NCBI GenBank assembly: GCA_016188705.1
Contig: JACPHH010000006.1
Coordinates: 1-62,913, forward strand
Reading direction: 5' to 3'
Length of the DNA stretch: 62,913 bases
DNA from: Candidatus Peregrinibacteria bacterium
GTDB lineage: Bacteria; Patescibacteriota; Gracilibacteria; UBA1369; JACRIC01
In this document: positions 4,893 to 56,695 of the stretch, in pieces
How positions within the stretch are numbered: position 1 is the first letter of the stretch
Layout of the letters: the number at the start of each line of letters is the position of its first letter
Program-made: the position numbers and the translations under genes
Notes under the pieces: generated by a model
Seen by the model: the letters and a program-made list of their open reading frames with translations, nothing else
Databases searched by the model: none
Told to the model about the DNA's origin: nothing

Positions 4893-6250
4893 AAAAAAAA
4901 ATTGCCGTTGTTATTCAGCGGTATGGTTTAGAGGTGAATGGAGGCGCGGAACTCCTTTGTCGGCAACTTTCGGAACGTTTGCAAGGCATTTTCGATATTA
5001 CGGTACTTACGACACGCGCACTTGATTATTATTCTTGGAAAAATCATTACAAGCAGGGCGTTAGCAAAATTTATGGAGTGACGGTTCATCGTTTTCCTGT
5101 GGATTTTGAACGCAATAAAAAAAAATTTGATGATCTTTCGCGGATTGTATATGCCACTCCCCATGATACCTCTGCCGGCGAAAAATGGATGAAAGAACAA
5201 GGTCCCTGCTCATCTGAACTTTTTTCATACATCGAGAAACACGAAAGGGACTTCAATTTTTTCTTATTTTTTACCTATTTGTACGCGACGACCTATTATG
5301 GAATACAAGCCATAAAAAACAAGAAAAAAATAGTCCTTGTACCAGCGGCGCATGATGAGCCTCCCATTCGTTTAAAAATTTTTGATTCAGTTTTTCATTC
5401 GCCAAATCAAATTATTTTCAACACGGAAGCTGAACGCGATTTTGTTCATCATCGTTTCGATAATGAGCATATCCAAAATATTGTCGCTGGAGTGGGCGTT
5501 GAATTTCCTCCAAATTATATTCGTCACGCAGCGGATTTCGTAAAAAAATATATAGGAACCTCTGAAAAACGTCATTTCGAAAACGAAAATGCAAAGATTC
5601 GAGCGAAAACGCTGAAGGACGACGAAGACGTATCAGAAGAAGATACGGCAAGGAGGAGTGAAGCGTTTGCAGCCGAATCTTTGCATTTGCAGTCGAAAGA
5701 ATGTTTTTCAGAGGTTCCTAAACGTAAAGGGTGTTTTTCAGGCCTTTCTCAATACGTTATTTATGCCGGCCGTATTGATGAATCGAAAGGTTGTAAAGAA
5801 ATGTTTGAATATTTTTTAGAGTATAAAAAATTAACACATTCTTCTCTTCAACTTGTTCTTCTCGGGAAAGCTGAAATGGATATTCCTTCGCATCCTGACA
5901 TTATCGCTCTTGGATTTATTTCTGATCAAGATAAATTTGATGCCATTTGCGGCGCGCGATTCATGATCGTCCCTTCTCCGTATGAAAGTCTTTCCATATC
6001 GCTTTTAGAGGCTTTTCTCTGTCAAAAAACCGTTCTCGTCAATGGAAGGTGCGAAGTTCTTAAAAATCACTGCGTTCAGAGTAACGGTGGTCTTTGGTAC
6101 GGCAATGCGGGAGAATTTATTGAAGGATTGGACTATTTACTCACTCATAAAAACGAAAGAGAAATTATGGAAAAAAATGGCTATCAATATGTTCTTCAAA
6201 ATTATCAATGGAATTTGATTATTGAAAAAATTAAAAATTTCATTTTGTAA
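4889..6250 (+). CDS. GT4 glycosyltransferase with in-frame palindromic element
   Basis: GT-B glycosyltransferase, paralogous to the gene at 2645-3823. N-terminal KIAVVIQRYGLEVNGGAE and C-terminal YVIYAGRIDESKGC, SPYESLSISLLEA and the NGGL segment are all intact. Between the two Rossmann domains lies a stop-free stretch of about 55 codons (5554-5719), beginning GTSEKRHF and ending CFSEVP. Its DNA is a full-length copy of the dispersed palindromic element, and the paralogue has nothing in its place. The insert sits in the interdomain linker, where extra sequence is likely tolerated. The start at 4889 gives an ATGA overlap with the upstream stop; an ATG at 4877 is also in frame. The gene shows no other damage, so it is probably functional. 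Confidence 0.87.
   Translation: MKKKIAVVIQRYGLEVNGGAELLCRQLSERLQGIFDITVLTTRALDYYSWKNHYKQGVSKIYGVTVHRFPVDFERNKKKFDDLSRIVYATPHDTSAGEKWMKEQGPCSSELFSYIEKHERDFNFFLFFTYLYATTYYGIQAIKNKKKIVLVPAAHDEPPIRLKIFDSVFHSPNQIIFNTEAERDFVHHRFDNEHIQNIVAGVGVEFPPNYIRHAADFVKKYIGTSEKRHFENENAKIRAKTLKDDEDVSEEDTARRSEAFAAESLHLQSKECFSEVPKRKGCFSGLSQYVIYAGRIDESKGCKEMFEYFLEYKKLTHSSLQLVLLGKAEMDIPSHPDIIALGFISDQDKFDAICGARFMIVPSPYESLSISLLEAFLCQKTVLVNGRCEVLKNHCVQSNGGLWYGNAGEFIEGLDYLLTHKNEREIMEKNGYQYVLQNYQWNLIIEKIKNFIL
5554..5719 (+). repeat. Palindromic element, full length, inside a CDS
   Basis: A 166-bp imperfect palindrome. Both arms begin AGGAACCTCTGAAAAAC (reverse complement at the right end) and share about 57 bp, including ATGCAAAGATTCG on each arm. 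The centre holds the small inverted repeat CGTATC...GATACG. From GGA to CCT it is 165 bp, exactly 55 codons, with no stop in the gene's frame. The flanking dinucleotide is TA on both sides. Confidence 0.92.
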
Positions 6251-6277
6251 CAATTTAAACTTTGTAACAATTTAAAC
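6244..6277 (+). repeat. 17-bp tandem duplication
   Basis: Two perfect tandem copies of TTTGTAACAATTTAAAC, spanning the stop codon of the glycosyltransferase and the gap before the next start. It fills the whole intergenic spacer, so the second copy supplies the leader of the FAD oxidoreductase gene. It looks like a recent slippage or recombination duplication. Confidence 0.85.
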
Positions 6278-6278
6278 G

Positions 6279-7598
6279 ATGTCTGATCTTCATGAACATT
6301 ACTTTCCCATTGTTATCATAGGAGGAGGAGTGCTTGGAAACGCTTTAAGTTATGCTCTTTCTTCCGTTTACAGTGGCAGCGATATCGCCGTGATTGAAAT
6401 GGCTCACGACGTTGCCTGTCACGCAAGTGGACGTAATACGGGAGTCATTCATCGTCCTTTTTACCTTCATCCTGAACATAAAAAAAAGTTCGCGCTCATG
6501 GCGAATGAATCATTTGTACTGTGGAAAAAATACGCAAAATTAAAATCTCTTCCGTGGAAAGAAATCGGCACTTTGGAGGTCGCGACATCTCCCGAGCAAC
6601 GCCATTCACTTGATCAATACCAGCAGTGGGCCATAAAAAATGGCATGGAAAAAAAAGAAATTGAACTTCTCTCATCTGACGAAGTTCGAAAAATAGAACC
6701 TCATGTTCACTCTTCAGGGGCACTTTTCTGTCAAACTGATACCGCGGTCGATTTTCGTCTCTTTACTCAATCACTCAAAAACGATTCCATGTCTCAAGGC
6801 GTTACTTTTTTCTTTGACAGCGAAGTAAAACATATTTCCAATCAAAATAATCGTTATTCTCTCTCATGCGACAATGGACTTCGCATTGAGACGAAGTATT
6901 TTATCAATTGCGCCGGAGGAGGAGCTCTAAAGCTCGCTCACATGCTGGGACTGGCGCGGGAATTTGCCGACATGCATTTTCGTGGTGATTATTGGCATAT
7001 CCATCCTTCCTTTTTTTCTCTCGCAAGCAGAAATATCTATTCAGTGCCAAGGCACAGCGCTTTCCCTTTTCTCGATCCGCATTGGGTTGTCAAACATGAT
7101 GGCAGCGTGGAAATCGGACCTAATGCCGCGCCTATCATCGGCCCCTATACCTACTCCGGCGTGATGGGAAATCCTTTTTCAAGTATTCAAAATATTTTTA
7201 CGGGCCCCTTTTCCAATCGACTCAAACTTCTCAAAAATAAGGAGTTTTACTCATTGGCATTGCAGGAATGGCGCAGTTCTTTTTCTCGCCGACACATGAT
7301 TCGTCGGGTTCAGGCATTTTTACCGGAGTTGGACGCTCACGCCGTCACCAAGAAGGGCATAGGTGGCATTCGCAGCATACTGATTGATCCTCTTGGCAAT
7401 TTTGTCAAAGAGGCTCTTGAATTTTTTACGCCTTCCTCTCTTCATATCCTTAATTACAATTCTCCGGGTGCCACCGGCGCTCCATTTTACGCCCTATCTC
7501 TTATTTCTCAATTAAAAGAAAAAGGGTTTCTTGAACATCTCAGTCTGCTCAAAAAAAAGAATTCCGAAACGTGGAGCATTCAGACAATACATTTATAA
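6279..7598 (+). CDS. FAD-dependent oxidoreductase, LhgO-like
   Basis: 439 aa DAO-superfamily flavoenzyme. The N-terminal dinucleotide-binding motif IIGGGVLGNAL is followed by the segment HASGRNTGVIH, which closely resembles the flavin-proximal region of L-2-hydroxyglutarate oxidase (LhgO). A C-terminal glycine-rich FAD loop (SPGATGAP) is present. The family oxidises 2-hydroxy or 2-amino acids, passing electrons to FAD. Its position within a run of glycosyltransferases suggests a role on a sugar or acyl substituent, but this is inference and a housekeeping LhgO role is possible. The start is the ATG just after the 17-bp tandem duplication. Confidence 0.82.
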   Translation: MSDLHEHYFPIVIIGGGVLGNALSYALSSVYSGSDIAVIEMAHDVACHASGRNTGVIHRPFYLHPEHKKKFALMANESFVLWKKYAKLKSLPWKEIGTLEVATSPEQRHSLDQYQQWAIKNGMEKKEIELLSSDEVRKIEPHVHSSGALFCQTDTAVDFRLFTQSLKNDSMSQGVTFFFDSEVKHISNQNNRYSLSCDNGLRIETKYFINCAGGGALKLAHMLGLAREFADMHFRGDYWHIHPSFFSLASRNIYSVPRHSAFPFLDPHWVVKHDGSVEIGPNAAPIIGPYTYSGVMGNPFSSIQNIFTGPFSNRLKLLKNKEFYSLALQEWRSSFSRRHMIRRVQAFLPELDAHAVTKKGIGGIRSILIDPLGNFVKEALEFFTPSSLHILNYNSPGATGAPFYALSLISQLKEKGFLEHLSLLKKKNSETWSIQTIHL

Positions 7599-7702
7599 AA
7601 AATCAACCTGTAAACATAAAATCACTTGTCTATGACAAAATTTAATGGTTACTTTATATTTGTCCATGAAAGATTTTTCCCTCATTAACGTTCGCCTAAA
7701 CA

Positions 7703-8704
7703 ATGAAACAAATTATACGAAAAATACAATACTCTTTGTATAGATTTATGGCATTTTATGCCGTTGCTATTCCGAGCGTTTTAGCCATTATTTTTAATAA
7801 AAGCAAAGAGCCGCTTTTCAGCTATAGATGCCTCTTGCTGTATTTGTTGAAAAGAGATTATTTTCCTTTTTATTCCCAAGTTAATTTTCGAGACCGCTTC
7901 ACTTTTCACCAAGATAAAGATTTTCCTTTTGTCGTTTATAACAATGATACCTATTTCTATTCAAACAAGTGGTCAAAAGAGCTTATTATTGACAACTTTA
8001 ATAGCACTCTCAATGAACAAAATATCGGGTCGCCGCATCGATATTTATCCACGGATGAAATCAAAGAAGGATGGGTTATTTATGACATCGGCGCCGCCGA
8101 GGGTCTGCAAGCGAAAGAATGGTCAAAAAAAACGAAACAAATTATTATTTTTGAGCCGGATGAAACTCAATGCGTCTGTCTAAGAAAAACTTTCGAATCT
8201 GAAATCAAAAACGGTAAAGTTATAATTATTCAAGAAGGCGTATCGAATGAGCATAAAGAAATACAGTACGGTAAACAGGTTTTTACAGTAGACAGTCTTT
8301 CTCATTTGGTAAAAAAATATAAACTCCCAGCTCCGAATTTTATAAAAGCCGATATTGAAGGAGAAGAAATGCATCTTCTTGAGGGAGCAAAGGATGTCAT
8401 CGCAAATCCAAACATTGAAGTTGTCCAAATTACTTCGTACCATCGACCGCACGACAGCGAAAATATCGCTCAATTTTTTAGTCAATATAGCGGCAAGGGT
8501 GAATCGAGCGAGGGCGTTACTCTGGTGAATAGAGACGGTCTTGAAACGGTCATTTTCACCTTTCATCACCCTATTATCAGAAAATGTCTTTATACTTTTC
8601 GGTTTCAGCTCGGTCCATCTAAAGAATCTCTGAAAAACGTACCTTCTATTGCAATAAAGCGCAATGAAAGCAGAACATATCCTTGCTCTTTTCAATCAAA
8701 TTGA
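7703..8704 (+). CDS. FkbM-family methyltransferase
   Basis: 333 aa. Class I SAM methyltransferase with motif I VIYDIGAAEGLQA, then IIFEPDE at the end of strand 2. The FkbM signature segment reads VDSL...FIKADIEGEE, followed by LLEGA. FkbM enzymes O-methylate sugars or polyketides; in glycan loci they usually methylate a hydroxyl on a glycan residue. The first 90 residues contain a hydrophobic helix (AVAIPSVLAIIF) that may associate with the membrane. The 104-bp spacer upstream suggests a new transcription unit could start here. The 3' end overlaps the next gene by 41 bp. Confidence 0.87.
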   Translation: MKQIIRKIQYSLYRFMAFYAVAIPSVLAIIFNKSKEPLFSYRCLLLYLLKRDYFPFYSQVNFRDRFTFHQDKDFPFVVYNNDTYFYSNKWSKELIIDNFNSTLNEQNIGSPHRYLSTDEIKEGWVIYDIGAAEGLQAKEWSKKTKQIIIFEPDETQCVCLRKTFESEIKNGKVIIIQEGVSNEHKEIQYGKQVFTVDSLSHLVKKYKLPAPNFIKADIEGEEMHLLEGAKDVIANPNIEVVQITSYHRPHDSENIAQFFSQYSGKGESSEGVTLVNRDGLETVIFTFHHPIIRKCLYTFRFQLGPSKESLKNVPSIAIKRNESRTYPCSFQSN

Positions 8705-10094
8705 AAAAGATTTTGAAGTAGATCAGTGGACTATTGATGGCATCCATGTTTGGCCGCTTATACGCCTTGACATGATGATGGGACTCCATTTCGAGGAATC
8801 TGAAAAACTGCAAATAAAAATTACTCTGCTTTTTAAAATACGTCAGGCGTTTGGCATGATTTTTGGATATGTTCGATACATTTTTCAATCTCTTCGCGAC
8901 ATGAAAAATAATGCCAAAATTCATCCGGTTGACGCGGTGATTCTTGGCGATGGAATCGCTCGCGTTTTCCTCAATGGCAAATGGCATGACCGATTTTGCG
9001 ATCCTTTGGTTCATGATTTGAGCCTCAAAAATAAAACGAGCCTCGTTCTCGAACCGCTGCATAATTACATCGTCCCTCGCTACAGTCCATCAATTTTTAT
9101 CCAACATTTACTGGATTTTTCATTATTAAAAAATTTTATTTTTAAAAAAAAACATTTCAAACATATTGAGCTTAAAGATTTTCAGAAGTTTGTCGAATAC
9201 ATACAATTAAAAAAATTACGCATTCCCCTTCCTGATGAAAATCGCTTAAAAATAATTGTTTTGACGGTAAAATCGTACGCCGAGCACTATAAAAAAATAC
9301 TTAAACTCGCGAAACCGTCACAGGGCTTTGTTGTCTGTTACTATGGTCCAAGGGGACTTGCTTTCAATCTGGCTTGCCATCAGCTTGGGATTCCCTCCGT
9401 GGATATTCAACACGGCGTTGCCGGTGAATATAATCCCGCGTATGGGCAGTGGAACAAGGTTCCACCAAGCGGATATGAAGTGCTGCCCTCCATCTTTTGG
9501 TGTTGGACAAAAGAGGACGCTTTGGCGATACGTCGATGGAATAAGAACGTTACAGAGTCGCACCGCGCCGTTCTTAGCGGTAACATGTTCGCTGATTTTT
9601 GGAAAAATGCGTCTATTATGGATAAAAAAATAGACAACAATTCGTTTCAAAGCCTCACTAAAAAGAAAGAAGACATACATATCCTTGTCACTCTCTCGTC
9701 AGTGGAAAATCATAATAATCTTCTTTTATCCAAAATTATTGAAGTCATGAAACATTCCGATGCACGTTGGAAATGGTGGATACGACTGCATCCTTGTTTA
9801 TTATATAAAAAAAAAGAAGTCAAAAAAACCCTTCAAGAAGCGCGTATTCAAAATTTCGAAATTGATCAGGCGACCGATCTCCCTTTGTATTTGATTTTGC
9901 CTCACATGGATATTCATATAACTTATGTTTCGGCTACAGTAGTGGAAGCCTGTATGTTCGGAGTTCGTTCGATTGTCACGGGAGAGGATGCCGTACGCTA
10001 TTTTTCCGCTCAAATTTCTTCAGGATGGGCTGTCTACAGCGAAACTCCGGATAAAATAACGCAAGCCATAAAGCGTTTATCTTCATCATGCTAA
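8664..10094 (+). CDS. Putative polysaccharide biosynthesis protein (GT-B-like)
   Basis: 476 aa. The N-terminus has the pattern WTIDGIHVWPLIRLD, seen in a class of capsule or surface-carbohydrate proteins with a GT-B-like fold related to CDP-glycerol or capsule (KpsC/S-like) transferases. The C-terminal half has WIRLHPCLLY and the donor-side segment TYVSATVVEACMFGVRSIVTG, a typical S/T-x-V-E-A nucleotide-sugar contact. Function is probably transfer or polymerisation in the glycan; the substrate is unknown. The start codon lies 41 bp inside the FkbM gene. The TAA stop shares its last base with the first base of a palindromic element. Confidence 0.7.
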   Translation: MKAEHILALFNQIEKDFEVDQWTIDGIHVWPLIRLDMMMGLHFEESEKLQIKITLLFKIRQAFGMIFGYVRYIFQSLRDMKNNAKIHPVDAVILGDGIARVFLNGKWHDRFCDPLVHDLSLKNKTSLVLEPLHNYIVPRYSPSIFIQHLLDFSLLKNFIFKKKHFKHIELKDFQKFVEYIQLKKLRIPLPDENRLKIIVLTVKSYAEHYKKILKLAKPSQGFVVCYYGPRGLAFNLACHQLGIPSVDIQHGVAGEYNPAYGQWNKVPPSGYEVLPSIFWCWTKEDALAIRRWNKNVTESHRAVLSGNMFADFWKNASIMDKKIDNNSFQSLTKKKEDIHILVTLSSVENHNNLLLSKIIEVMKHSDARWKWWIRLHPCLLYKKKEVKKTLQEARIQNFEIDQATDLPLYLILPHMDIHITYVSATVVEACMFGVRSIVTGEDAVRYFSAQISSGWAVYSETPDKITQAIKRLSSSC

Positions 10095-10186
10095 GGAACC
10101 TCTGAAAAACGTACCATCTACTGCAATTTTACCATGTCGGCTGCAAAATGTTCAAAGCTCCTTGAGCGTATCTTATCTGATACGCT
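10094..10186 (+). repeat. Palindromic element, left half
   Basis: Left arm from AGGAACCTCTGAAAAACG up to and including the central inverted repeat GCGTATC...GATACGC (10167-10186). The right arm is missing and is replaced by the third repeat family. The first base of the element is the last base of the stop codon of the preceding gene. Confidence 0.88.
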
Positions 10187-10262
10187 TTTTCCTTTGAAAA
10201 AAAGTACATATCGCTGGGAGGCGGGGGCTCGTCGCTCGGATACTCGACCGAATCAAAGAGCA
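10183..10262 (+). repeat. Third repeat family, uninterrupted copy
   Basis: About 80 bp starting ACGCTTTTTCCTTTGAA and containing GTACATAT, GGGAGGCGGG, CTCGTCGCTCGGATACTCG and GATCAAA-like sequence. The same string recurs at 28524-28742, where it is split by a 130-bp hairpin element. This copy shows the uninterrupted state. The rest of the spacer to 10334 holds no gene that I can see. Confidence 0.8.
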
Positions 10263-11585: not shown

Positions 11586-11593
11586 GTAAAAAA

Positions 11594-12601: not shown

Positions 12602-14065
12602 ATGGAAACCTCTGAAAAACATCCTTTCGACCGCACATGCAAAAATTCGAGCGAAAACACTGAAAGCACGCAATCGGCTCTACTTGTTATAAATACAATG
12701 ACTTATTTTGTGGGGCTTGTTGAAACAGGAAGAATGCTGCAGAAAAAATCAAAATATAAACCCATTTTTTACTTTACTCAGCCTTATCCAAAATATCAGG
12801 AAGATTTAGCCATTTGCGAAAAAGAACGCATGCGGTATATCTGTGGTTTTCAAAAAATTCCTCTCATTCTCGGTGGAGATTCTTCACGTCTGACTCCCAA
12901 GCAGGATAGTTTCAAAAAATTCTGCCTCTATTTTTATGGCATTTTTTTTGTCGGTTTTCTCTATGAAATGTTTTCATATTTCAAAGAATTTTCAAAAATT
13001 CGCGCGTTGATTCGAAAATCGAAGCCGACAATACTCATTATCGCAGGAGATAACATCGGATATAACACCAATATTCTCGTAAAAATATGCCATGACAATA
13101 AAATTCCATCTCTGATCATTCCTTTATGGATGGCAGGTCCGGCTGAAGCGGCTGAAGCTTATTTTCATAATCCTCTTTATGATGCTCGCAGATTATCCAA
13201 TCGCATTTTAGGTTTTTTCGATCCAAAATGGCTCTACTCGCACAAGGGAAAAAAGATGATACGGTGGCCTGCTTTTAAAATACTGGCCATGAAACTTTTT
13301 GGACTGGAACCACCGCTGCCCTGGATTCTTAACAGCAGCTATGCCGATAGCATTACGGCGGAGTGCGAGGAAATGGCGGCATTTATGAAACGCGAAGGCA
13401 TTCCTTTGAAGCAAATTACTGTCACTGGCTCTCTCGCGAACGATATTATGGCCGAAAACATTCGAGACTATGATACGCGAAAAAAAAATCTTTTCGAACG
13501 CCTTAATCTCGAAAAAGATAAGCCTCTCTTACTGTGTGCGTTGCCTCCCAATATTTTGTATGGCTATTCTCGGCCGGAATGCGATTTTTCTACTTATGGG
13601 GAGCTCGTAGAATTTTGGATCAAGTCGCTCGCGAATATAAAAAATTATAACGTGGTTATATCTTTGCATCCTGCCATAAAATATGAAGAAATTCGCTCTA
13701 TCGAAGACTTTGGCGTTACAATTGCCCTGGAAAAAATTATCGATCTCATTCCGTATTGCGATCTTTTTGTCGCCGCCATGTCCGGTACTATCCACTGGGC
13801 TACGGCCTGCGGAAAACCAGTGCTCAATTATGATGTGTATAAATTCCGCTACAAAGATTTTTTGGAATATAAAGGCATTCTGTATGCCGATCAGAAAGAC
13901 CATTTTACAATGCTCCTTCAGAAGCTTACTCATAATAATGATTTTTACCTAAAAATACTTCATGAGCAAAAATCCAACTCTCGTCAATGGGGTATTCTTG
14001 ATGGAAAATGTGGCAATCGAATTCTTCAACGCATTGATACTTTGGTAAAACAATATTCATGCTAA
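12602..14065 (+). CDS. GT-B-like surface carbohydrate protein
   Basis: 487 aa. The fold prediction from visible motifs is two Rossmann-like halves: ALLVINTMTYFVGLVETGR at the start, and in the second half VVISLHPAIKYEE, then AAMSGTIHWATACGKPVLNY. That pattern is found in UDP-GlcNAc 2-epimerase, CDP-glycerol transferase and related GT-B proteins. I cannot assign an exact reaction. The first 20 or so residues (METSEK...) derive from a palindromic-element fragment at 12604-12661. A later start at the ATG coding Met33 (12698) would omit it but would also cut into the first strand. The 3' end overlaps the flippase by 7 bp. Confidence 0.68.
   Translation: METSEKHPFDRTCKNSSENTESTQSALLVINTMTYFVGLVETGRMLQKKSKYKPIFYFTQPYPKYQEDLAICEKERMRYICGFQKIPLILGGDSSRLTPKQDSFKKFCLYFYGIFFVGFLYEMFSYFKEFSKIRALIRKSKPTILIIAGDNIGYNTNILVKICHDNKIPSLIIPLWMAGPAEAAEAYFHNPLYDARRLSNRILGFFDPKWLYSHKGKKMIRWPAFKILAMKLFGLEPPLPWILNSSYADSITAECEEMAAFMKREGIPLKQITVTGSLANDIMAENIRDYDTRKKNLFERLNLEKDKPLLLCALPPNILYGYSRPECDFSTYGELVEFWIKSLANIKNYNVVISLHPAIKYEEIRSIEDFGVTIALEKIIDLIPYCDLFVAAMSGTIHWATACGKPVLNYDVYKFRYKDFLEYKGILYADQKDHFTMLLQKLTHNNDFYLKILHEQKSNSRQWGILDGKCGNRILQRIDTLVKQYSC
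12604..12661 (+). repeat. Palindromic element arm at a CDS start
   Basis: About 58 bp matching one arm of the palindromic element (GGAAACCTCTGAAAAACAT, then TTCGA and ATGCAAAAATTCGAGCG). It supplies the first codons of the downstream gene (METSEK). A one-base shift part-way along means that only the first third keeps the frame used in the other in-gene copies. Confidence 0.85.
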
Positions 14066-28228: not shown

Positions 28229-28278
28229 AGGAACCTTAAGAAAAACGTAATTTCGTAACGAGTTTTGAGGGAGTTCCT
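28229..28278 (+). repeat. Palindromic element, short deletion form
   Basis: About 50 bp, AGGAACCTTAAGAAAAACGT on the left and GGAGTTCCT on the right. It belongs to the variant with CCTTAAG in place of CCTCTG. The interior is almost wholly lost, leaving TTTCGTAACG. Confidence 0.75.
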
Positions 28279-28280
28279 TT

Positions 28281-28444
28281 AGGAGCCTCTGAAAAACGTA
28301 CCATCTACTGCAATTTTACCATGTCGGCTGCAAATCGTTCACAGCTCCTTGACGTATCTAATCTGATACGCCTTCGTCGCTGTTCACGATTTTCGCTCGA
28401 CATGATAAAATTTCGTTACGAAGTTACGTTTTTCAGAGGCTCCT
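28281..28444 (+). repeat. Palindromic element, full length, intergenic
   Basis: 164 bp with termini AGGAGCCTCTGAAAAACG and ACGTTTTTCAGAGGCTCCT, and the central CGTATC...GATACG near 28354-28370. Although intergenic, it has no stop codon over its whole length in the frame GGA-GCC-TCT-GAA, the same frame used by the copies that lie inside genes. Confidence 0.92.
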
Positions 28445-28804: not shown

Positions 28805-28881
28805 AGGAACCTTAAGAAAAACATTTTTATCTACTGTACTTTTCAAATTTCATGACAAAAATCTGTTTCTCAGAGGTTTCT
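28805..28881 (+). repeat. Palindromic element, internally deleted
   Basis: 77 bp with termini AGGAACCTTAAGAAAAAC and TTTCTCAGAGGTTTCT. The centre is missing. It ends 44 bp before the GTG start of the methyltransferase, so it forms part of that gene's leader. Confidence 0.8.
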
Positions 28882-31343: not shown

Positions 31344-32561
31344 TCACATAAAATTTTTAGAAAGACTCTTTTTCACTTCGTCAGCATGTTCATGGAGAGC
31401 TAACACAGCGTTACAGATTTTCTTTATCGTTTTTTCAGGAATATGTGAAAAAAGCGGCAGGCTCAAAGAATTTTCCGATACCATACAGGTGATTTTGAGT
31501 CCTGTATCTCTTTTTGGATAAAATTGAAAAGCCTTTTGAACGTGCACTGGCGGATAGAAATATTTTTTCGTTATGATATTTTCTTTGCCAAGCGCCTCGC
31601 ATACATGATCTCGCGAGAGGCCAAATGCCGATTCGTCAATATAGATTGAAAAATCTTTATAACTGCTTCGGTTTCCGCTCTCAATTTTTTGAAAGGATAT
31701 GCCTGGAATTTTTGATAAAAATTTCTTATACAATTCAACCATTTTATTTCTGCGGACTACATTTTTTTCAAGAGCCTTTATGCTTTCAATTCCAAGAGCG
31801 GCATGGAGCTCGCTCATTCGTGCATTGAACCCTGAAAATTCGCTATCGTAGTTTCCTGGATCTCCATAATTTCTTCCTGTCCTGAGTTTTTTCGCCAAAT
31901 CTGCGTCATTGGTTGTCACCATTCCTCCTTCTCCACTCGTAAGCAATTTCGTTGGGCTTAAACTGAATGATTCAGCATTTCCAAAACTACCGATTTTTTT
32001 TCCGTGGTATATGGTTCCAAAACCGTGAGCCGCGTCAAAAATGAGTTTTAATCCATGTTTTTTCGCTATTTTTTCCAATGACTCAATGTCCGCGGGATTA
32101 CCAAAAAGATGCACGCCCAAAATCGCGCTGGTTTTTTTTGTAATTGCGGCTTCAACTTTCACGGGATCGATATTATATGTTTCGGGATCGCAATCCACAA
32201 AAACAAGTTCCAATCCATTCCACGCGGCGGCATGAGCCGTGGCATGAAAGGTAAAACTCGGCATAATAATTTCACCTTTTAATCCAAGAATTTTTAAAAT
32301 AAGCATCATTCCATTCATACAACTATTGGTGGCGACCGCATATTTTGCTCCGGTATAATTTTTTACGGATTCTTCAAATGCTTCAACATATTTAAAATTC
32401 GTCAGCATGCCGCTTTTAAAAATTTTTTTATATGATCTCATTATATTTTCCACGGGAGGAATCGTCGGAGAAGTAATCGGCACCGTTATATCAAACATGG
32501 GAGCATTGCCGAGTACCGCGAGATGATGACGTTTTTCAGAGGTTCCTTTAAAATGTTTCAT
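31344..32561 (-). CDS. DegT/DnrJ/EryC1 aminotransferase (LegC-like), copy 2
   Basis: 405 aa PLP-dependent sugar aminotransferase with ATNSCMNGMML, FDAAHGFGT and the lysine motif SLSPTKLLTSGEGG. It is the last gene of the nonulosonate operon, where the expected role is transamination of a 4-keto sugar nucleotide (LegC/PseC step). The first 21 residues, MKHFKGTSEKRHH and on, are encoded by a palindromic-element end; paralogue copy 1 has no such leader. A start at Met22 (32498) would give the usual family N-terminus. The 5' end overlaps the CBS/SDR gene by 14 bp. Confidence 0.87.
   Translation of the reverse strand: MKHFKGTSEKRHHLAVLGNAPMFDITVPITSPTIPPVENIMRSYKKIFKSGMLTNFKYVEAFEESVKNYTGAKYAVATNSCMNGMMLILKILGLKGEIIMPSFTFHATAHAAAWNGLELVFVDCDPETYNIDPVKVEAAITKKTSAILGVHLFGNPADIESLEKIAKKHGLKLIFDAAHGFGTIYHGKKIGSFGNAESFSLSPTKLLTSGEGGMVTTNDADLAKKLRTGRNYGDPGNYDSEFSGFNARMSELHAALGIESIKALEKNVVRRNKMVELYKKFLSKIPGISFQKIESGNRSSYKDFSIYIDESAFGLSRDHVCEALGKENIITKKYFYPPVHVQKAFQFYPKRDTGLKITCMVSENSLSLPLFSHIPEKTIKKICNAVLALHEHADEVKKSLSKNFM
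32528..32547 (-). repeat. Palindromic element end inside aminotransferase N-terminus
   Basis: GACGTTTTTCAGAGGTTCCT on the plus strand; on the coding strand it reads GGAACCTCTGAAAAACG and encodes GTSEKR in the same frame as the other in-gene copies. Confidence 0.82.
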
Positions 32562-34608: not shown

Positions 34609-34677
34609 GAACCTTAAGAAAAACGTACCATCTACTGCAATTTTACCATGTCGGCTGCAAAATGTTTAAAACTCCTT
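34609..34677 (+). repeat. Palindromic element, left half
   Basis: GAACCTTAAGAAAAACGTAC on the left and CTCCTT on the right, matching the left arm up to the position before the central inverted repeat. It fills the spacer between neuC2 and neuD and overlaps the stop codon of neuC2 by 2 bp. Confidence 0.82.
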
Positions 34678-35824
34678 AATACGAAATCTGTTTTTTTAAT
34701 AATTTTTTACCAAGAGGAAGCGATTTTAATGTTTTCATGATTCGTTGACCCGCTTTTCCATCACCCCAAGGGTTTTTCATGTTTTTTATTTTTTTTAAAT
34801 ACTCTTCATCGTAGAGCGCTTGATGCATCGCTTTCATAATAGATTGTTCGGAGTGATCAACATGAATAACGTTGGCTCCGTGCAAACGTCCAGATTGCCG
34901 AGTCCCAATATTTACCACGGGTGTTTTAAAAGAACCTGACTCAATCATTGAAGCGCTGCTGTTTCCCACCCAAACGGCGGCATGTTTTTCCAAACTCAGA
35001 AAAACGGTATATTCCAAATTTTTATATATTCGAAAAAGTGGATTTTTTTTCTCACGCTCTATTACTTCAATTATTGCTTTATTGCCTGGGTCCGCGTTTG
35101 GATAAATAACCGCCGTTGGCAGTTTACATGATTTTATCGCGTCGATCGTTTGCTCCATCTGCCAGCCCGCTTTCTCTATCTCTTCGCTCGTAGGATGCTG
35201 TAAAAGCAAAATAAATGGCTGGTTGTCATCAAATTTCAGCATGGAATAGACCTCATCCTTTGTCATCAGTTTTTGATGAGTGATTACATCCAAAGCCGGC
35301 GCGCCAATAACCTGTATCCGCCATTTTTCTTCACCCATGCGTTCAATTCTTTTCGCCGCCTCTTTGGTAGCGGGAAAATGAAAGTGTGAGAGTTTCGTGA
35401 TCGCGTGTCTTACAATTTCATCGACCGTAGCGGTTTTATCACCGCCATGAATATGACAGCTTGGAATGCCCAAATAGAGTGAAACGAGCGCCAGACTCAG
35501 CACTTCCGGCCTGTCGCCGATGGTTAATACAAAGTCCGGTCGATCGCGAGTGAATTCAATGGTAATCTTTTTTATAAGCTCGGCCATGAAACGCGTAACA
35601 GCCGTTTCATCATCGGATTCAAATCGAACATCAATACGTCGAGCGTCGGGAAAACTTTTTTGAACCATGCTCGCTGTTTGACCATATTCCGGCATGAGGT
35701 GCATACCTGTATAATAGAGTTCTAATTTAAGCTGAGGATCTTTTTGAATGTTTTGAAGAATAGGGAGCATGAGTCCATACTCAGCGCGAGTAGCCGTAAC
35801 ATACGCGATTTTTCTTTTTTTCAT
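34676..35824 (-). CDS. neuC: Hydrolysing UDP-GlcNAc 2-epimerase (NeuC/LegG type), copy 2
   Basis: 382 aa. AYVTATRAEYGLMLPIL at the N-terminus, LTIGDRPEVLSLALVS, IHGGD and VGNSSASMIESGSF: all features of NeuC/LegG hydrolysing epimerases. It lies 5 bp after the fused neuA-neuB gene, so its product (a mannosamine-type sugar) would be the direct substrate of the synthase. The copy at 25418 shares the same layout but has ITGIRADYG and SSAILEAP, so the two are clearly diverged paralogues rather than a recent duplication. Confidence 0.9.
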   Translation of the reverse strand: MKKRKIAYVTATRAEYGLMLPILQNIQKDPQLKLELYYTGMHLMPEYGQTASMVQKSFPDARRIDVRFESDDETAVTRFMAELIKKITIEFTRDRPDFVLTIGDRPEVLSLALVSLYLGIPSCHIHGGDKTATVDEIVRHAITKLSHFHFPATKEAAKRIERMGEEKWRIQVIGAPALDVITHQKLMTKDEVYSMLKFDDNQPFILLLQHPTSEEIEKAGWQMEQTIDAIKSCKLPTAVIYPNADPGNKAIIEVIEREKKNPLFRIYKNLEYTVFLSLEKHAAVWVGNSSASMIESGSFKTPVVNIGTRQSGRLHGANVIHVDHSEQSIMKAMHQALYDEEYLKKIKNMKNPWGDGKAGQRIMKTLKSLPLGKKLLKKQISY

Positions 35825-37587: not shown

Positions 37588-37765
37588 ATATTTAGATAAT
37601 TTTTTGTATATGAGTTCGAATTTTTTATTTTTTTAAAAAAAATCTTTAAGTCAAACAATATTTAATATTTTTTCGCAAGCTTTTTCCTCCATAAATTACT
37701 TGTCAATGTCCTATGATTTAGCCATAATATCAACGCGTTGATTATTAAACTGTCGATTATGGCAC

Positions 37766-37803
37766 AATTTCGTTACGAAGTTACGTTTTTCTTAAGGCTC
37801 CCT
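37766..37803 (+). repeat. Palindromic element, right-end fragment
   Basis: AATTTCGTTACGAAGTTACG then TTTTTCTTAAGGCTCCC, matching the right arm in its CTTAAG variant. It lies in the 246-bp divergent spacer (37588-37833), which otherwise is AT-rich and must carry the promoters of the nonulosonate operon and of the small membrane protein. Confidence 0.8.
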
Positions 37804-38465: not shown

Positions 38466-39311
38466 TCATTTCCGTCCTCGTATTTTTTCGAGTTCTTCTT
38501 CAATGGGATAGTTTATTAAAACGGCTTTTCTAGCGCCATGAAATACAAACATGCTTCCCGCGGCTACGGCGGACGCATGACCTTCCACAATTCCATCTCT
38601 CAAATCGCTTATCGAGCCCGCTCCGCCACAAGCGATGATGGGAATTCGCGAGTTTTCAGCAACTTTTCGAATAATATCAAGATCATACCCCTCCATGGTT
38701 CCATCCCGATCAATGGAATTTAAGAGGATTTCACCCGCGCCTTTTTCTTCAACAAGGCGAATAACCTTTGCAAGATCATCTGAAAAAACTTTGGTTCCGC
38801 AATGAATATAAACATCATATGATTCCTTAGGAATCTCTGAAAAACACACCTTCGCTCGAATTTTTGCATTTTCGTTTCCGAAATTACGTTTTTCAGAGGT
38901 TCCTCCATTATTTTTTTTAATATCCACGGAAACCACGATGCTTTGCCGACCGAAAATTTCTGATGCTTCTTTTATCAAATCAGGATTTTCCAAAGCAGAG
39001 GTATTCAGGCACACTTTTTCCGCTCCGGATGATAAAATATCCCGAATTTGCGAAACATTTTGAATACCGCCGCCCACTCCAAACGGCATGAGGCATTGAT
39101 CGGCAATTTTTTGTATCAAATCGAGATCAGGAATTCTTTTTTCTTGCGTCGCCAAAATGTCCAAAAATAAAAGTTCGTCCACCTCCATGGTATTGAAAAT
39201 CTGGACCGCGTTTATCGGATCGCCGATATATCGATGATCTTTAAACTTTACTCCTTTTACGAGACCTTTTCCTTTGAGTAATAAACAAGGGATGACTCTT
39301 GGTAATAGCAT
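38466..39311 (-). CDS. hisF: HisF-like synthase subunit, copy 2, with in-frame element
   Basis: 281 aa HisF-family barrel: FGVGGGIQNVSQ, VCLNTSALENP, ILLNSIDRDGTMEGYD, IACGGAG. The first catalytic Asp of HisF is replaced (PCLLLKG, Leu where Asp is expected), while the second is kept (VSVDIKK). Right after that strand, about 25 residues starting GTSEKRNF and ending CFSEIP are encoded by a 76-bp palindromic element (38829-38904); HisF1 lacks them. They fall in the loop after the strand bearing the second Asp. The gene is 2 bp from hisH2 and next to amidotransferase 2, so a role in channelling ammonia to sugar amidation is inferred. Confidence 0.87.
   Translation of the reverse strand: MLLPRVIPCLLLKGKGLVKGVKFKDHRYIGDPINAVQIFNTMEVDELLFLDILATQEKRIPDLDLIQKIADQCLMPFGVGGGIQNVSQIRDILSSGAEKVCLNTSALENPDLIKEASEIFGRQSIVVSVDIKKNNGGTSEKRNFGNENAKIRAKVCFSEIPKESYDVYIHCGTKVFSDDLAKVIRLVEEKGAGEILLNSIDRDGTMEGYDLDIIRKVAENSRIPIIACGGAGSISDLRDGIVEGHASAVAAGSMFVFHGARKAVLINYPIEEELEKIRGRK
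38829..38904 (-). repeat. Palindromic element, internally deleted, inside hisF2
   Basis: 76 bp: AGGAATCTCTGAAAAACAC on one end, TACGTTTTTCAGAGGTTCCT on the other, with the GCTCGAATTTTTGCATTTTC arm segment between. The centre is missing. On the coding strand it is open in the gene's frame and encodes the GTSEKR...ENAKIRAK peptide that also occurs in the glycosyltransferase at 4889. Confidence 0.92.
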
Positions 39312-39313
39312 TT

Positions 39314-40144
39314 TTACGTGTAATCGATAAAATTTTTATATATTTCAAGTCCGGTCAGATGGCTTTTTTCAGGGTGGAATTGGGTTCCGTACATATTGTC
39401 TCTTTTTATAATGGATGGAAAATCGTAGCCATAGGATGTTGTCGCGATAACGTACTCTTCCTCCAACTCATCAAAATGGTACGAATGCGTAAAATAAAAC
39501 CGCGTTGATCGCGAAATTCCCTTAATGAGAGATGAATCCTTCCTGATATCAATGGTATTCCAACCAACATGAGGAATACTGAGCTTTTTTGCCATACGCT
39601 TAAGCACCTGAGGCTTATCATCGCTGAATTCCTGAAACCTATCATCGCTGAACTTCTGAAACCTATCATCGCTGAACTTCTGAAACCTATCATCACTGAA
39701 CTTCTGAAACCTATCATCACTGAACTTCTGAAACCTATCATCACTGAACTCCTGAATCCTGTCATCACTTGATTCCTGAGATACATCATCGCTGAACTCC
39801 TGAGATTTATCATCGAAATGGAAACGCACGATTTTTCCTTTTATCCAGCCAAGTCCCGCGACATTTCCCTCCTCGCTCCACTCCGAGAAGAGCTGCATGC
39901 CCAAACACACTCCAAGTATCGGAGTTTTTTCTTCAAGGACTTTCGTATTGAGAACAGGCAGCAACCCGTATTCTTTTATATTTTTCATACCTTGTCCAAA
40001 ATGACCAACTCCCGGAAAAATGAGTTTTTCAGCGCTTTTTATATCTTCAACTTTCGATGAAATGACGGCCTTCACTTTTATCATTTCAAGTTTTTTCAAA
40101 ATGGACCTCAAATTTCCCATCCCGTAATCAACGATAACGATCAT
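39314..40144 (-). CDS. hisH: HisH-like glutamine amidotransferase, copy 2, with repeat insert
   Basis: 276 aa, against 200-212 for the family. Glutaminase motifs are intact: VDYGMGNLRSI, GVCLGMQLFSEWSEEG with the catalytic cysteine and TQFHPEKSH with the His/Glu pair. The extra length is a run of about nine 8-residue units (consensus SDDRFQKF) inserted before KLSIPHVGW, at a loop where HisH1 has a short connection. The gene overlaps amidotransferase 2 by 4 bp and precedes hisF2 by 2 bp, so all three are coupled. Whether the acidic repeat affects pairing with HisF2 is unknown. Confidence 0.88.
   Translation of the reverse strand: MIVIVDYGMGNLRSILKKLEMIKVKAVISSKVEDIKSAEKLIFPGVGHFGQGMKNIKEYGLLPVLNTKVLEEKTPILGVCLGMQLFSEWSEEGNVAGLGWIKGKIVRFHFDDKSQEFSDDVSQESSDDRIQEFSDDRFQKFSDDRFQKFSDDRFQKFSDDRFQKFSDDRFQEFSDDKPQVLKRMAKKLSIPHVGWNTIDIRKDSSLIKGISRSTRFYFTHSYHFDELEEEYVIATTSYGYDFPSIIKRDNMYGTQFHPEKSHLTGLEIYKNFIDYT
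39608..39818 (-). repeat. 24-bp in-frame tandem repeat in hisH2
   Basis: About 8.7 units of 24 bp, four of them nearly identical (plus-strand ATCATCGCTGAACTTCTGAA and variants). Outer units diverge more, as expected if the centre expands most recently. Units are contiguous with no spacers and encode 8 residues each. Confidence 0.92.
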
Positions 40145-41331
40145 TTAAAATATTTAAAATAGATGATTTCCGGTATAAATCCGAATTTAAAACCGATATA
40201 AATTGGCAATTTTAAGGCTTTTAACAGAGGATAATAGGTTTTATAATCATGAAAACTTTTTCGTTCATTTTTCATAATCGCGTCAAATTCTTCGCGGGAT
40301 AAACCCAATTTTTCCAACACGTATTCAATGAGATCTTCTTCGTAAGGATACTCCGTTGCCCCCATTTCGCTTAAAGCTTGTTCCCGCGTCATCATTCCAC
40401 TCCTGATGAAAGCGGCGTATTCAAGTTTCCTTTTGTCGATATTGAATTTTTTTGGCAAATAGTATGACTGGAAAAATTTCGTAAAAAGCGATTCGTGATG
40501 GTGTCCGCCGTAATATCTCCAGTCAAGTTCTTCTTCAAGGAGTTTTTTCGCTTTCAATTTGTCATACTGAAAATAATTCATAAAAGGAATGCATTTTATT
40601 CCTTTGATTACGCGGTAATAAAATAAGCTTCCCAAAGTGATATTCGGGAAACTCGTTATCTTTTTTTGACCGAATTTTTCATGAACGCTATTTACATATT
40701 TTCCTTCCATGTACGTCCAAGTCACTGGAACGATTCCCTCATTGCGGAAAGAATGCCCGAAGAAGACATATTTGATATTTTCTTTAGCCGCCACGTCATG
40801 TAAGACGGCGTGAATGGCGACATCAGTTGGAATTTCCGCGTCCGACACTGAAGCCTTCAGAAAAGCAATCTGCAGATCCTTAAATTCTTCCCAATCCGCG
40901 ACCACGGTTTCCAAATCAATATTCAATTTTTTGGTGGAATTTTGAATATTTCTTACGGCAATTTCCGAATTCCAGCCATTGTCAAAATGCACCGCCAAAG
41001 GCCGCAGTCCCGCCTTCACGGCAAGATAAAGCATATAGGTGCTGTCGGTTCCGCCGCTTGTTCCTATAACGCAGTCATAACGATTATTTTTCCCGTTTTT
41101 TTTAATTTTTCGAATAAGCTTTTCGCGATTTTTTTCACCCTGTTCGTTCAGTGGATACATTTTTTCCATCAAATCGTGCATTTTGCAAAACTGGCAGACG
41201 CCGTTTTCATCAAAAACTATTTCCGGAATAGTTGTATCACAGACACACCTCGTACAAATGATTAAAGGAATTCCCTCATTTTTATCATAGAAATGGCATT
41301 TTTCAGATGTTCCTCTTGCTGTCTTTTCCAT
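40141..41331 (-). CDS. N-acetyl sugar amidotransferase (WbpG-like), copy 2
   Basis: 396 aa. Zinc-type cysteines CTRCVCDTT and CQFC, then the PP-loop IGTSGGTDSTYML, in which Thr replaces the Lys of the usual SGGKDS. It is the partner of HisH2 and HisF2 and first in the three-gene unit. The reaction is ATP-dependent conversion of an acetamido to an acetamidino group. The first 20 residues (MEKTARGTSEKCHF) come from a palindromic-element end at 41294-41314; the family normally starts just before the first cysteine pair. Copy 1 at 17411 has the canonical SGGKDS loop, so the two copies are old paralogues. Confidence 0.87.
   Translation of the reverse strand: MEKTARGTSEKCHFYDKNEGIPLIICTRCVCDTTIPEIVFDENGVCQFCKMHDLMEKMYPLNEQGEKNREKLIRKIKKNGKNNRYDCVIGTSGGTDSTYMLYLAVKAGLRPLAVHFDNGWNSEIAVRNIQNSTKKLNIDLETVVADWEEFKDLQIAFLKASVSDAEIPTDVAIHAVLHDVAAKENIKYVFFGHSFRNEGIVPVTWTYMEGKYVNSVHEKFGQKKITSFPNITLGSLFYYRVIKGIKCIPFMNYFQYDKLKAKKLLEEELDWRYYGGHHHESLFTKFFQSYYLPKKFNIDKRKLEYAAFIRSGMMTREQALSEMGATEYPYEEDLIEYVLEKLGLSREEFDAIMKNERKSFHDYKTYYPLLKALKLPIYIGFKFGFIPEIIYFKYFK
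41294..41314 (-). repeat. Palindromic element end inside amidotransferase N-terminus
   Basis: TGGCATTTTTCAGATGTTCC plus T on the plus strand. On the coding strand it reads AGGAACATCTGAAAAATGCC and encodes GTSEKC in the common frame. Confidence 0.78.
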
Positions 41332-45938: not shown

Positions 45939-46004
45939 GAACCTCTGATACATAAGATTTCGTTACGAAAATCGCAGTAATAAAAATGTTTTTCTTAAAG
46001 TTCC
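45939..46004 (+). repeat. Palindromic element, internally deleted
   Basis: 66 bp, GAACCTCTGATAC on the left and AAAATGTTTTTCTTAAAGTTC plus C on the right, with TTTCGTTACGAAAATCG between. It mixes the CTCTG and CTTAA terminus variants. It occupies the spacer between the wbpE-like and wbpD-like genes. Confidence 0.75.
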
Positions 46005-53822: not shown

Positions 53823-53845
53823 TCTCTTTACAGCCCCTTTACAGT

Positions 53846-53880: not shown

Positions 53881-53887
53881 GGCAGTT

Positions 53888-54581: not shown

Positions 54582-54624
54582 TTAAAACCTTGCATTTTCA
54601 TAACTAAAATGGCATTTTTCAAAG

Positions 54625-54650
54625 GGTCCATTATCGGGGTCCATTATCGA
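54625..54650 (+). repeat. 13-bp tandem duplication upstream of dnaJ
   Basis: GGGTCCATTATCG twice in tandem, ending 18 bp before the dnaJ start codon. A degenerate palindromic-element end (GGCATTTTTCAAAGG) lies just before it. Confidence 0.75.
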
Positions 54651-54667
54651 AAATTAAACTGAAAATT

Positions 54668-55789
54668 ATGACAGAAAATTACTATTCCATCCTTGGAATT
54701 GATAAAAATGCTTCCGACGATGAAATTAAACGGGCATATAGACGGCTTGCTCAAAAATATCATCCTGATCGCAACAGCGGAAACAAAGAAGCCGAGCAGC
54801 AATTTAAGAAGATTAACATGGCGTACGAAGTGCTTTCCGATAAAGAAAAAAGGGGAAATTATGATCAATTTGGAGAAGCGGGAGCCAATTTTGATCCTTC
54901 GCAGGGTTTTACTGGTCAGGGATTCGATTTTTCCGATTTCAATACAGGTTTTGGAGATATATTTGAATCATTTTTTGGATCTGGCACGCGTTCAAGGAAA
55001 AAAGGGGGCCAGTCAATGCGAGGAAATGATATCGAAGCCCTTTTAAAGCTCCGTTTTGAAGAAGCGGCATTTGGCACCGAAAAAGAACTCAAAGTGACCA
55101 AATCCGTCGTTTGTGAACGATGCAAGGGACAGGGCAATGAACCAGGTTCAAAAATAGTAACTTGTCAACATTGCGGTGGCAGCGGCGAGATTCGCACGGT
55201 TCGTTCGACGTTTTTAGGACAAATGGCGACATCCAGAGCATGCGACGTATGCAGAGGCGAAGGTAAAATGCCTGAAACGCCCTGTCGTGATTGCAATAGA
55301 GCCACGCGCGTACGCAAAACCGAGCATATTCGAGTAAAAATTCCGGAAGGCATTGATTCTGGCGCCACCATTCGTCTTTCCGAAAAGGGCGAAGGCGGCA
55401 TGAAAGGCGGTCCCTCCGGCGACTTGTTTATTCACGTTGAGGTTGAACCTTCAGCCATCTATAAACGTAATGGATATGACATTTATAGCGACAAACATGT
55501 TCACGTTCTTCAAGTGACCCTCGGCGATGAAATTTCAGTGGAAACACTTCACGGACTCGTTCAACTCAAAATTCCAGCAGGAACACAAAGCGGAACTCTT
55601 TTTAAATTAAAAGAACGCGGCATAAAAAAGCTCCGCGCCAAGGGCTTAGGCGACCATTATGTTCGGATCATTATCAATATCCCCCTGAAATTGAGCAAAA
55701 AAGAAAGGGAACTCTATTCTCAACTTGCCTTAGAGGCCGGTCTCAAAGTAAAAACTGATGAAAGTCTTTTGAAACGCATGGGGTTATAA
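54668..55789 (+). CDS. dnaJ: Chaperone DnaJ
   Basis: 373 aa Hsp40 co-chaperone that stimulates DnaK ATPase and binds unfolded proteins. J domain at residues 1-68 with the HPD motif at 32-34, a Gly/Phe-rich stretch to about 118 (GFTGQGFDFSDF), a zinc domain with CERCKGQG (149), CQHCGGSG (166), CDVCRGEG (192) and CRDCNRAT (206), then two C-terminal substrate domains. The fourth zinc repeat keeps both cysteines but has lost the two glycines (NRAT instead of x-G-x-G). No grpE or dnaK is adjacent in the window. Confidence 0.95.
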   Translation: MTENYYSILGIDKNASDDEIKRAYRRLAQKYHPDRNSGNKEAEQQFKKINMAYEVLSDKEKRGNYDQFGEAGANFDPSQGFTGQGFDFSDFNTGFGDIFESFFGSGTRSRKKGGQSMRGNDIEALLKLRFEEAAFGTEKELKVTKSVVCERCKGQGNEPGSKIVTCQHCGGSGEIRTVRSTFLGQMATSRACDVCRGEGKMPETPCRDCNRATRVRKTEHIRVKIPEGIDSGATIRLSEKGEGGMKGGPSGDLFIHVEVEPSAIYKRNGYDIYSDKHVHVLQVTLGDEISVETLHGLVQLKIPAGTQSGTLFKLKERGIKKLRAKGLGDHYVRIIINIPLKLSKKERELYSQLALEAGLKVKTDESLLKRMGL

Positions 55790-55842
55790 AAGAAACTTTT
55801 GAAAAATACCCTATTCATGGATAAGTTCTTATTCGATTTTTT

Positions 55843-55860
55843 TTCTTGCGCGCGCAAGAA
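55843..55860. repeat. 18-bp perfect palindrome
   Basis: TTCTTGCGCGCGCAAGAA is a perfect inverted repeat, GC-rich in an AT-rich spacer 54 bp after dnaJ. A T run precedes it but none follows on the plus strand, so it is not a standard terminator. It could be a protein-binding site or mRNA 3'-end hairpin. Confidence 0.6.
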
Positions 55861-55876
55861 GAATATAATAGATTAA

Positions 55877-56040
55877 AGGAGCCTCTGAAAAATATCTTTT
55901 CTACTGTACTTTGCAAATTTTGGCTGCAAATTCTTCACCGCTCCTCGACGTATCTTACATGATACGCCTTTGTCGCGGTTCAAAATTTTCGCACAAAATT
56001 TGCAAATTTCGTAACGAAAATCTATTTTTCAGAAGCTCCT
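55877..56040 (+). repeat. Palindromic element, full length, intergenic
   Basis: 164 bp, AGGAGCCTCTGAAAAAT to ATTTTTCAGAAGCTCCT, with central CGTATCTTACATGATACG and inner arms GCAAATTTTGGCTGCAAAT and AAATTTGCAAATTTCG. Like the other intergenic full copy it is stop-free in the GGA-GCC-TCT-GAA frame over its length. Confidence 0.9.
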
Positions 56041-56062
56041 AAAAGATGAATTAAAAATACGT

Positions 56063-56626
56063 ATGGCAATAACACTTTCCTGGGACCTTTTTATCATTGT
56101 TTTTTTTACTGTCATTATTGCCTACAGTTTTATTATTGGTAAACACCAGACACTCAAAGTTATTATCGGTACTTATATTGCCGTTCTTACGGCTGACGGA
56201 CTTGGAAATCTTATTCAACAATACGTTTTTGGCAATAGTCCCGCTCTGAAAATATTGCCGGCTGCTTATGAAGATCGAGCGCTCATTCTTTTAAAAATTT
56301 TTGTATTTATATTAGTAATAGTTGTTATCTCCGTGCGTGGCGGTTTTCATATTGATCTCCCTATTGAATCAACGAAAATCGGACAACTGCTTACCACGTT
56401 TTGTTTCGGGTTTTTGAACGCAGGGCTTATAGTGAGTACCATTTTGGTCTATGTGTCTGGTTTTTCTTTTGTGCAGGGCGCGTCGGACATCGCGCTCAGT
56501 CCGATATTTTCACTCTATCGGGATTCGCAGATGGTGCAAATTATGATTAATCATTATAATTTCTGGTTTTCTCTTCCCGCGATTGCCTTTGTATTTCAAA
56601 GCTTTGCCGGCAGAGATGAATCTTAA
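56063..56626 (+). CDS. Integral membrane protein, CvpA-like
   Basis: 187 aa with four or five hydrophobic segments (about residues 8-28, 33-50, 73-96, 107-133 and 160-180). The layout, with a charged loop DLPIESTKIGQLL between helices, resembles small CvpA/colicin V-production-type proteins, but I cannot confirm the family. It lies between a full-length palindromic element and a degenerate one, with no operon partner. Function unknown. Confidence 0.6.
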   Translation: MAITLSWDLFIIVFFTVIIAYSFIIGKHQTLKVIIGTYIAVLTADGLGNLIQQYVFGNSPALKILPAAYEDRALILLKIFVFILVIVVISVRGGFHIDLPIESTKIGQLLTTFCFGFLNAGLIVSTILVYVSGFSFVQGASDIALSPIFSLYRDSQMVQIMINHYNFWFSLPAIAFVFQSFAGRDES

Positions 56627-56630
56627 AAAC

Positions 56631-56695
56631 TCATTCGGAAATAACCTTTTTACTGCAATGCTCAAATTTTGGCTGTAAACGATTTATTGCGCCTT
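56631..56695 (+). repeat. Degenerate palindromic-element half
   Basis: TTTTTACTGCAATG, then CAAATTTTGGCTGTAAA and GCGCCTT, match the left arm of the 55877 copy with many changes and a damaged terminus. Probably an old copy. Confidence 0.6.

Follow-up and report, generated by a model that had tools for sequence, protein, structure and literature searches.

Rickettsia palindromic elements (RPEs), in the passages devoted to them in PMC2229807, PMC3767692 and PMC10969869, are described as hairpins of ~100-150 bp lying in frame in genes. In-frame palindromes have so far been mainly a curiosity of the Rickettsiales and their way of moving obscure; in the portion of a 2007 review that covers them, RPE target duplication is entered as '?' (PMC2229807). 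Here we describe a comparable element in a 62,913-nucleotide stretch (the window, always taken whole) of contig JACPHH010000006.1 from a Candidatus Peregrinibacteria bacterium. Like RPEs and Wolbachia palindromic elements, as those are described, it is a dispersed hairpin of similar length, found in and between genes and in frame in unrelated conserved hosts; it differs from RPEs in being slightly longer (164/162 bp), in belonging to another phylum, and in having clear 4-bp target duplications and ends like those of the insertion sequence IS5. We consider it very probable that these copies form a family of non-autonomous miniature inverted-repeat transposable elements (MITEs), likely IS5-mobilised, whose 164-bp lineages add 56 codons in frame to genes, and that such additions are tolerated, not beneficial.

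Other known systems share parts of this pattern. IS5-family MITEs also have terminal inverted repeats in common with IS5-family elements, and an AT-rich 4-bp duplication; the family here differs in its 56-codon open-frame lineage concentrated in genes, and in duplications looser than the YTAR given for E. coli IS5 in the relevant part of PMC10359306. The Correia/NEMIS elements of Neisseria, in the account of PMC2229807, come in two size forms, the one that bears an open reading frame (ORF) being found in ORFs and the other mostly between genes; going by that description the split is similar, in a different phylum. Coding palindromes in an archaeon, Methanocaldococcus jannaschii (Suyama et al. 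2005, as cited in PMC2996958), are, by the citing description, also in frame and outside the Rickettsiales, so that the original prediction, made from the letters of the window, overstated the case in calling this habit new outside Rickettsia and Wolbachia. PARCEL repeats (Mollicutes and others) are coding, with dyad symmetry and a proposed horizontal spread, and as PMC2996958 presents them are mostly tandem 25-residue repeats, in contrast to the single ~54-residue inserts here. As far as our literature search reached (subscription papers were mostly outside it, and no such elements were reported for Peregrinibacteria, Patescibacteria or the candidate phyla radiation), the novelty lies in the phylum, in target duplications that can be seen directly, in ends of IS5 type for which candidate parents exist, and in the gene-concentrated 56-codon lineage. 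To our knowledge REP/RAYT-type repeats make no target duplication, which sets the element here apart from them.

Anatomy and dispersal of the element

The window's genome (G000; 1.37 Mb, 35 contigs, 94.65% complete; all genomes compared are drafts) contains 86 exact matches to the terminus pattern CCTCTGAAAAACG and none to its reversed form; a second terminus, CCTTAAGAAAAAC, matches 28 times versus once when reversed, and blastn with one full copy gives 77 matches. Copies therefore do recur elsewhere in the genome, a check that the original prediction had proposed. Full copies were sought in stretches around matches, amounting to 472,051 bases (34% of G000), and the 45 found there comprise lineage A (164 bp; 4 copies), lineage C (164 bp, ends GGAAACCCTGATAAATA; 17), a group of 153-163 bp (19) and one of 216/217 bp that has ~54 additional bases (5). 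The element is short, lacks a transposase gene and has terminal inverted repeats. Its 4-bp flanks are identical in 33/45 full copies (20,000 re-pairings of the flanks gave a mean of 5.1 and a maximum of 14), and the two copies whose folding was assessed each form a hairpin from end to end (fold z -11.2 and -11.1). Lineage length plus duplication, 164 + 4 = 168 bp, comes to exactly 56 codons. A pair of widely spaced ends, C13:169869/170999, was considered as one transposon and rejected, its left end lying in the FolC ORF and its right being a separate 85-bp copy with CTAA/CTAA flanks.

Among 59 genomes searched as relatives, the exact 17-base end is restricted to G000 and G001 (Candidatus Peregrinibacteria bacterium NC_groundwater_1793; JACRIC010000102, JACRIC010000018), which is of the same family as G000 and another genus and which places the element outside the Rickettsiales. 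A 164-bp element query matches 15/89 genomes of the order, of which G006 and G067 (short and weak) were discounted, leaving ~13 carriers; at class level 17/353 genomes match, and the two beyond the order, of 23-26 bp only, were likewise set aside. From these nucleotide searches the family appears confined to one order; blastn against phages gave no element match, nor did an exact 19-base pattern in IMG/VR.

This bears on the suggestion that the inserts might be true members of the Rickettsia or Wolbachia families, horizontally transferred into Peregrinibacteria. The size class, the hairpin, the in-frame habit and the single preferred frame are all alike (so far as described in PMC2229807 and PMC3767692), yet convincing matches are confined to one order among the 353 class genomes, and five encoded peptides found no match in Pfam or NCBIfam (libraries which may hold no RPE models; RPEs were compared by description, not by sequence), so we regard such membership as highly improbable. 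The likeness that the original prediction drew to RPEs is supported as one of behaviour, not of family membership: the element is a dispersed hairpin of ~160 bp in frame in unrelated conserved genes, absent from homologues and outside the Rickettsiales.

IS5-family elements with similar ends

No transposase had been noticed in the window and none was found in G000 as searched, but related genomes hold IS5-family elements with very similar ends. The PF01609 (DDE_Tnp_1) profile gave no match over cut-off in G000 or G001; PF05598, run over the 13 element-bearing genomes, matched strongly twice, once in G039 and once in G060. These two transposases score 336 and 335 bits respectively on the NCBIfam IS5-family model NF033581 (cut-off 140), and each lies within a complete element of ~1.16 kb with inverted ends. 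The G060 element has ends GGAAGCTCTGAAAAAC, 15/16 identical to the MITE end, and flanks TTAG/TTAG; that of G039 has ends GGACTCTCTGAAAAAA, 13/16 identical, and flanks which are not identical. A transposase query over 89 genomes returned G060, G039 and one 40%-identical protein in G080, and nothing else. Among three IS5 relatives on plasmids, that of Rhodanobacter has ends GGATGCTCTGAT and flanks CTAA/CTAA, that of Sulfitobacter has imperfect ends GGAAAGTCTGAAAAAC (12/16 between them, picked by eye) and flanks TCAA/TCAA, and that of Azospira has no clear ends.

From these comparisons we assign the ends and duplications of the present element to the IS5 type. Most likely, judging from these shared ends, an IS5-family DDE transposase mobilises the element by acting in trans on its ends, each insertion duplicating an AT-rich 4-bp target; since the enzyme was not found in the element's own genome, this mobiliser is proposed through likeness. 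If this is correct, coding palindromes of the Rickettsia type would gain a concrete mechanism of transposition, and the same habit in a distant uncultured lineage, with target duplications and candidate parents, makes that mechanism testable.

A second group of IS5-type and miniature elements, with ...CTGCAAAAG ends, is present in the same order (L238 in G080; L150/L151/L180/L198 in G010 and G022), the ends of the G080 element, GAGGCCTCTGCAAAAG, resembling those of another miniature element of G010, GAGACCTCTGCAAAAG.

Copies inside genes

Full copies in G000 and G001 were classified by hand, and 9/27 copies of 164 bp lie in frame inside genes, versus 0/32 copies of any other length (146-163 or 198-217 bp; p=0.0004 by Fisher's test), for 30 of which length plus duplication is not divisible by three. 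Regions partly chosen by a peptide profile are included in this count, as in the 45-copy set and in the frame count below, and supply one of the nine in-gene copies (in an O-antigen-ligase-like protein); a looser first count of 10/27 (RelA included; p 0.0001) was dropped. When full and partial copies in ORFs of >= 200 amino acids are taken together, in regions picked by DNA matches alone, lineage A reaches 15/29, versus 3/75 for the 162- and 216-bp groups (p 8e-8). For 173 terminus matches, 62 ORF placements were listed, some of them spurious antisense frames.

Full lineage-A copies in G000 are hosted by the window's glycosyltransferase, PyrD, KsgA/RsmA and a type IV secretion pilin-like protein (ten residues in), and in G001 by a sugar transferase; a sixth, also in G001, precedes a RelA/SpoT protein and is open in frame with it, but the start there is ambiguous and this copy was not counted. 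Lineage B has PrmC and NspC as hosts in G001, and lineage C has QueE and the O-antigen-ligase-like protein. Full 164-bp inserts also occur in G010 TilS and, near the N-terminus, in a G039 CYTH-domain protein. Shortened copies that keep the frame are also common in genes. Fragments in G000 are found in TilS, Mur ligase, UvrD, FolC, UvrC, RecF, MiaA, anaerobic ribonucleotide reductase, phosphoketolase and an aminotransferase. A single tilS copy was found in G010 and likewise in G000 (one extra match, of 21.9 bits, is below cut-off), with inserts in both; TilS is essential in model bacteria, and a gene of that kind therefore carries inserts here. This illustrates how, in a small genome, a mobile element could lengthen many conserved enzymes by ~50 residues: where a 164-bp lineage and its duplication land in a gene, the frame should be kept and the protein should gain ~56 residues.

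Three of these places hold something further. In G001 a second copy, of 146 bp, directly follows nspC, itself host of a full copy (L115 1912-2057); the G000 UvrC (L067 10463-12823 -) has, besides its element fragment, an acetyltransferase-like domain match at 559-632; and the anaerobic ribonucleotide reductase (L243, G000:C20) contains a LAGLIDADG-containing, intein-like segment as well as its fragment.

Ten host proteins were aligned to solved structures, the best alignment of each being used. The insert is a gap relative to the solved homologue in nine (PyrD, KsgA, HisF2, QueE, NspC, phosphoketolase, MiaA, aminotransferase IV and FolC), most clearly in HisF2 (query 137/165 against chain 137/138) and NspC (298/358 against 298/302), coarsely in QueE and partially in MiaA; in the tenth, G010 TilS, the alignment ends before the insert. 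One 54-residue segment recurring across many proteins could have been an ancestral protein domain, with no insertion at all; the gaps in these nine alignments contradict that reading, and moreover the hosts are unrelated, and other copies of the family sit between ORFs with identical 4-bp flanks.

A further possibility is that the inserts are removed, by RNA or protein self-splicing or by ribosomes bypassing the hairpin, to leave normal host proteins. The hairpin is very strong and the hosts are conserved enzymes, with single-copy tilS among them; removal, however, needs neither a stop-free frame nor a length that, duplication included, is divisible by three, and the full in-gene copies have both, while shortened copies in ORFs likewise keep the frame. 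An Rfam scan of the window also returned two tRNAs only, and no other family. Removal is accordingly very unlikely in our judgement, and we infer that the inserts are translated and retained in the protein.

Reading frame and encoded peptide

In the 164-bp lineages an open frame starts from the element's first base, with GTSEK in A and B and GNPDK in C. In four of the six full lineage-A copies three of the six strand-frames are open, and in the rest two, and all six copies use one strand and frame, for which the chance is ~0.004 if three are open and somewhat higher with two. Of the 21 partial lineage-A copies that lie in ORFs, 11 use the usual frame by coordinates and 3 more do so by peptide, after small shifts (this count takes in profile-chosen regions). 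The usual frame encodes a hydrophilic peptide (grand average of hydropathy, GRAVY, -1.09; 39% charged residues), the other two open frames having GRAVY values of 0.06 and -0.12. In a set of 42 copies drawn from G001 and further genomes the three phases have 26, 16 and 1 open strand-frames of 84, the third being closed by a TGA within the usual end itself.

In our reading the frame bias reflects which insertions did least harm and so survived, and does not reflect function. Were the peptide or hairpin kept for some benefit to the cell (regulation, localisation or stability), then the concentration of lineage A in ORFs, and the shared strand and frame of its six full copies where two or three are open, would fit; but constraint at the level of codons is not seen, the named host genes have no obvious common pathway, and least-harmful-frame survival accounts for the bias, which leaves a positive function improbable. 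Tolerance, not benefit, would then account for the inserts, the strongly charged, hydrophilic lineage-A peptide likely being tolerated as a floppy surface loop. In the window's HisF2 host the predicted structure, weak as it is (2-sequence alignment, mean predicted local distance difference test score 61.6), falls below 50 over the insert region 133-176, a hint that this insert may be disordered. On balance we lean slightly towards lineage A being specialised for life in genes, its 56-codon length and soluble charged loop making insertions harmless protein extensions.

Several observations weigh against an IS5-mobilised family whose 164-bp lineages are fitted to genes. Of the identical flanks only 7/33 match YTAR (CTAA/TTAG 6, TTAA 1), TAAA/TTTA (16) and others falling outside it, although YTAR may not hold across the whole IS5 family; and searches of G000 and G001, both incomplete, yielded neither an IS5-type transposase nor an autonomous partner. 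Lineage C, also of 164 bp, has only 2/28 of its full and partial copies in ORFs (counted as for the 15/29 above), and two copies in G001, 146 and 206 bp long, are multiples of three with their duplication, yet lie outside genes; a frame-compatible length is by itself not sufficient for in-gene placement. Other frames are used by 7/21 of the partial lineage-A copies in ORFs and by a 161-bp insert in G069 UvrC (161+4 = 165). Purifying selection on the lineage-A peptide was not seen (pN/pS, the ratio of nonsynonymous to synonymous polymorphism, 0.84; variable sites 7, 8 and 8 by codon position), nor was stop avoidance significant in lineage A (0/6 copies with stops, 1.2 expected; p 0.26) or lineage C (0/16, 2.0 expected; p 0.09, one 84%-identical copy left out). 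For the 162-bp elements the count was 0/12, with 1.9 expected (p 0.04; ten closest copies 0.64), and the stop-avoidance test as a whole is not relied on.

Copies in the window

Copies in the window (Table 1) were called by blastn with six element queries at E <= 0.05, a threshold at which five resampled windows gave 0, 1, 0, 3 and 0 matches. At least 16 copies had been predicted, and 15 of those 16 places match, that at 41294 with the second weakest E in the window (0.002); 21760 has no match, and the copy at 8624-8655 was overlooked. The three predicted full copies, bounded by GGAACC/GGAGCC-type ends, are present, with lengths of 164, 162 and 162 bp, the predicted 164-166 having included one flanking base per side. 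All five copies predicted to be in frame are so, GTSEK/ETSEK occurring in ORFs at 5555, 12605, 32546(-), 38903(-) and 41313(-) in one common frame, and the unlisted sixth uses another; genome-wide, other frames make up a minority of lineage-A cases, yet a real one. The two intergenic full copies, 28282 and 55878, do lie between ORFs and have, as predicted, a frame without stops (GASEK).

Table 1. Copies of the element in the 62,913-nucleotide window
Feature	Position	Strand	Details
Full lineage-A element, 164 bp	5555..5718	+	Internal, in frame in glycosyltransferase ORF 4877-6250 +; flanks TATA/TAAA differ
Partial copy	8624..8655	+	E 5e-7; C-terminal end of FkbM-type methyltransferase ORF 7703-8704; other frame (ESLKN)
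Partial copy, left half	10095..10189	+	Directly follows ORF 8664-10094
Partial lineage-A copy	12607..12664	+	Makes N-terminus (METSEK) of ORF 12602-14065
Partial copy	28230..28261	-	Terminus CCTTAAG-type
Full 162-bp element	28282..28443	+	Between ORFs; flanks TTTA/TTTA
Partial copy	28816..28874	+	CCTTAAG-type terminus at 28810
Partial copy	32521..32546	-	Part of N-terminus (GTSEK) of DegT-type aminotransferase ORF 31344-32561 -
Partial copy	34618..34679	+	CCTTAAG-type terminus at 34612
Partial copy, right end	37759..37801	+	CCTTAAG-type terminus at 37785
Lineage-A copy, 74 bp, internal deletion	38830..38903	-	In frame within HisF2/AglZ-type ORF 38466-39311 -
Partial copy	41277..41313	-	Contributes to N-terminus (GTSEK) of ORF 40141-41331 -
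Partial copy	45939..45976	+	blastn E 1e-6
Weak partial copy	54590..54629	-	blastn E 0.027
Full 162-bp element	55878..56039	+	Between ORFs; flanks TAAA/TAAA
Partial copy	56639..56695	+	blastn E 6e-4

Within 38466-41331 the HisF2/AglZ-type protein (NF038364) adjoins two ORFs that were named by eye as HisH-like and PP-loop-like; the group is probably a sugar acetamidino-modification cluster, and all three ORFs bear element copies or tandem repeats. The HisH-like ORF (39314-40144 -) contains in-frame 24-bp tandem repeats at 39584-39823, which we take as a further sign that in-frame additions are tolerated in genes here. In-frame tandem repeats, of 42/63 bp, are also held by ORF 57028-58056 +, at 57286-57558.

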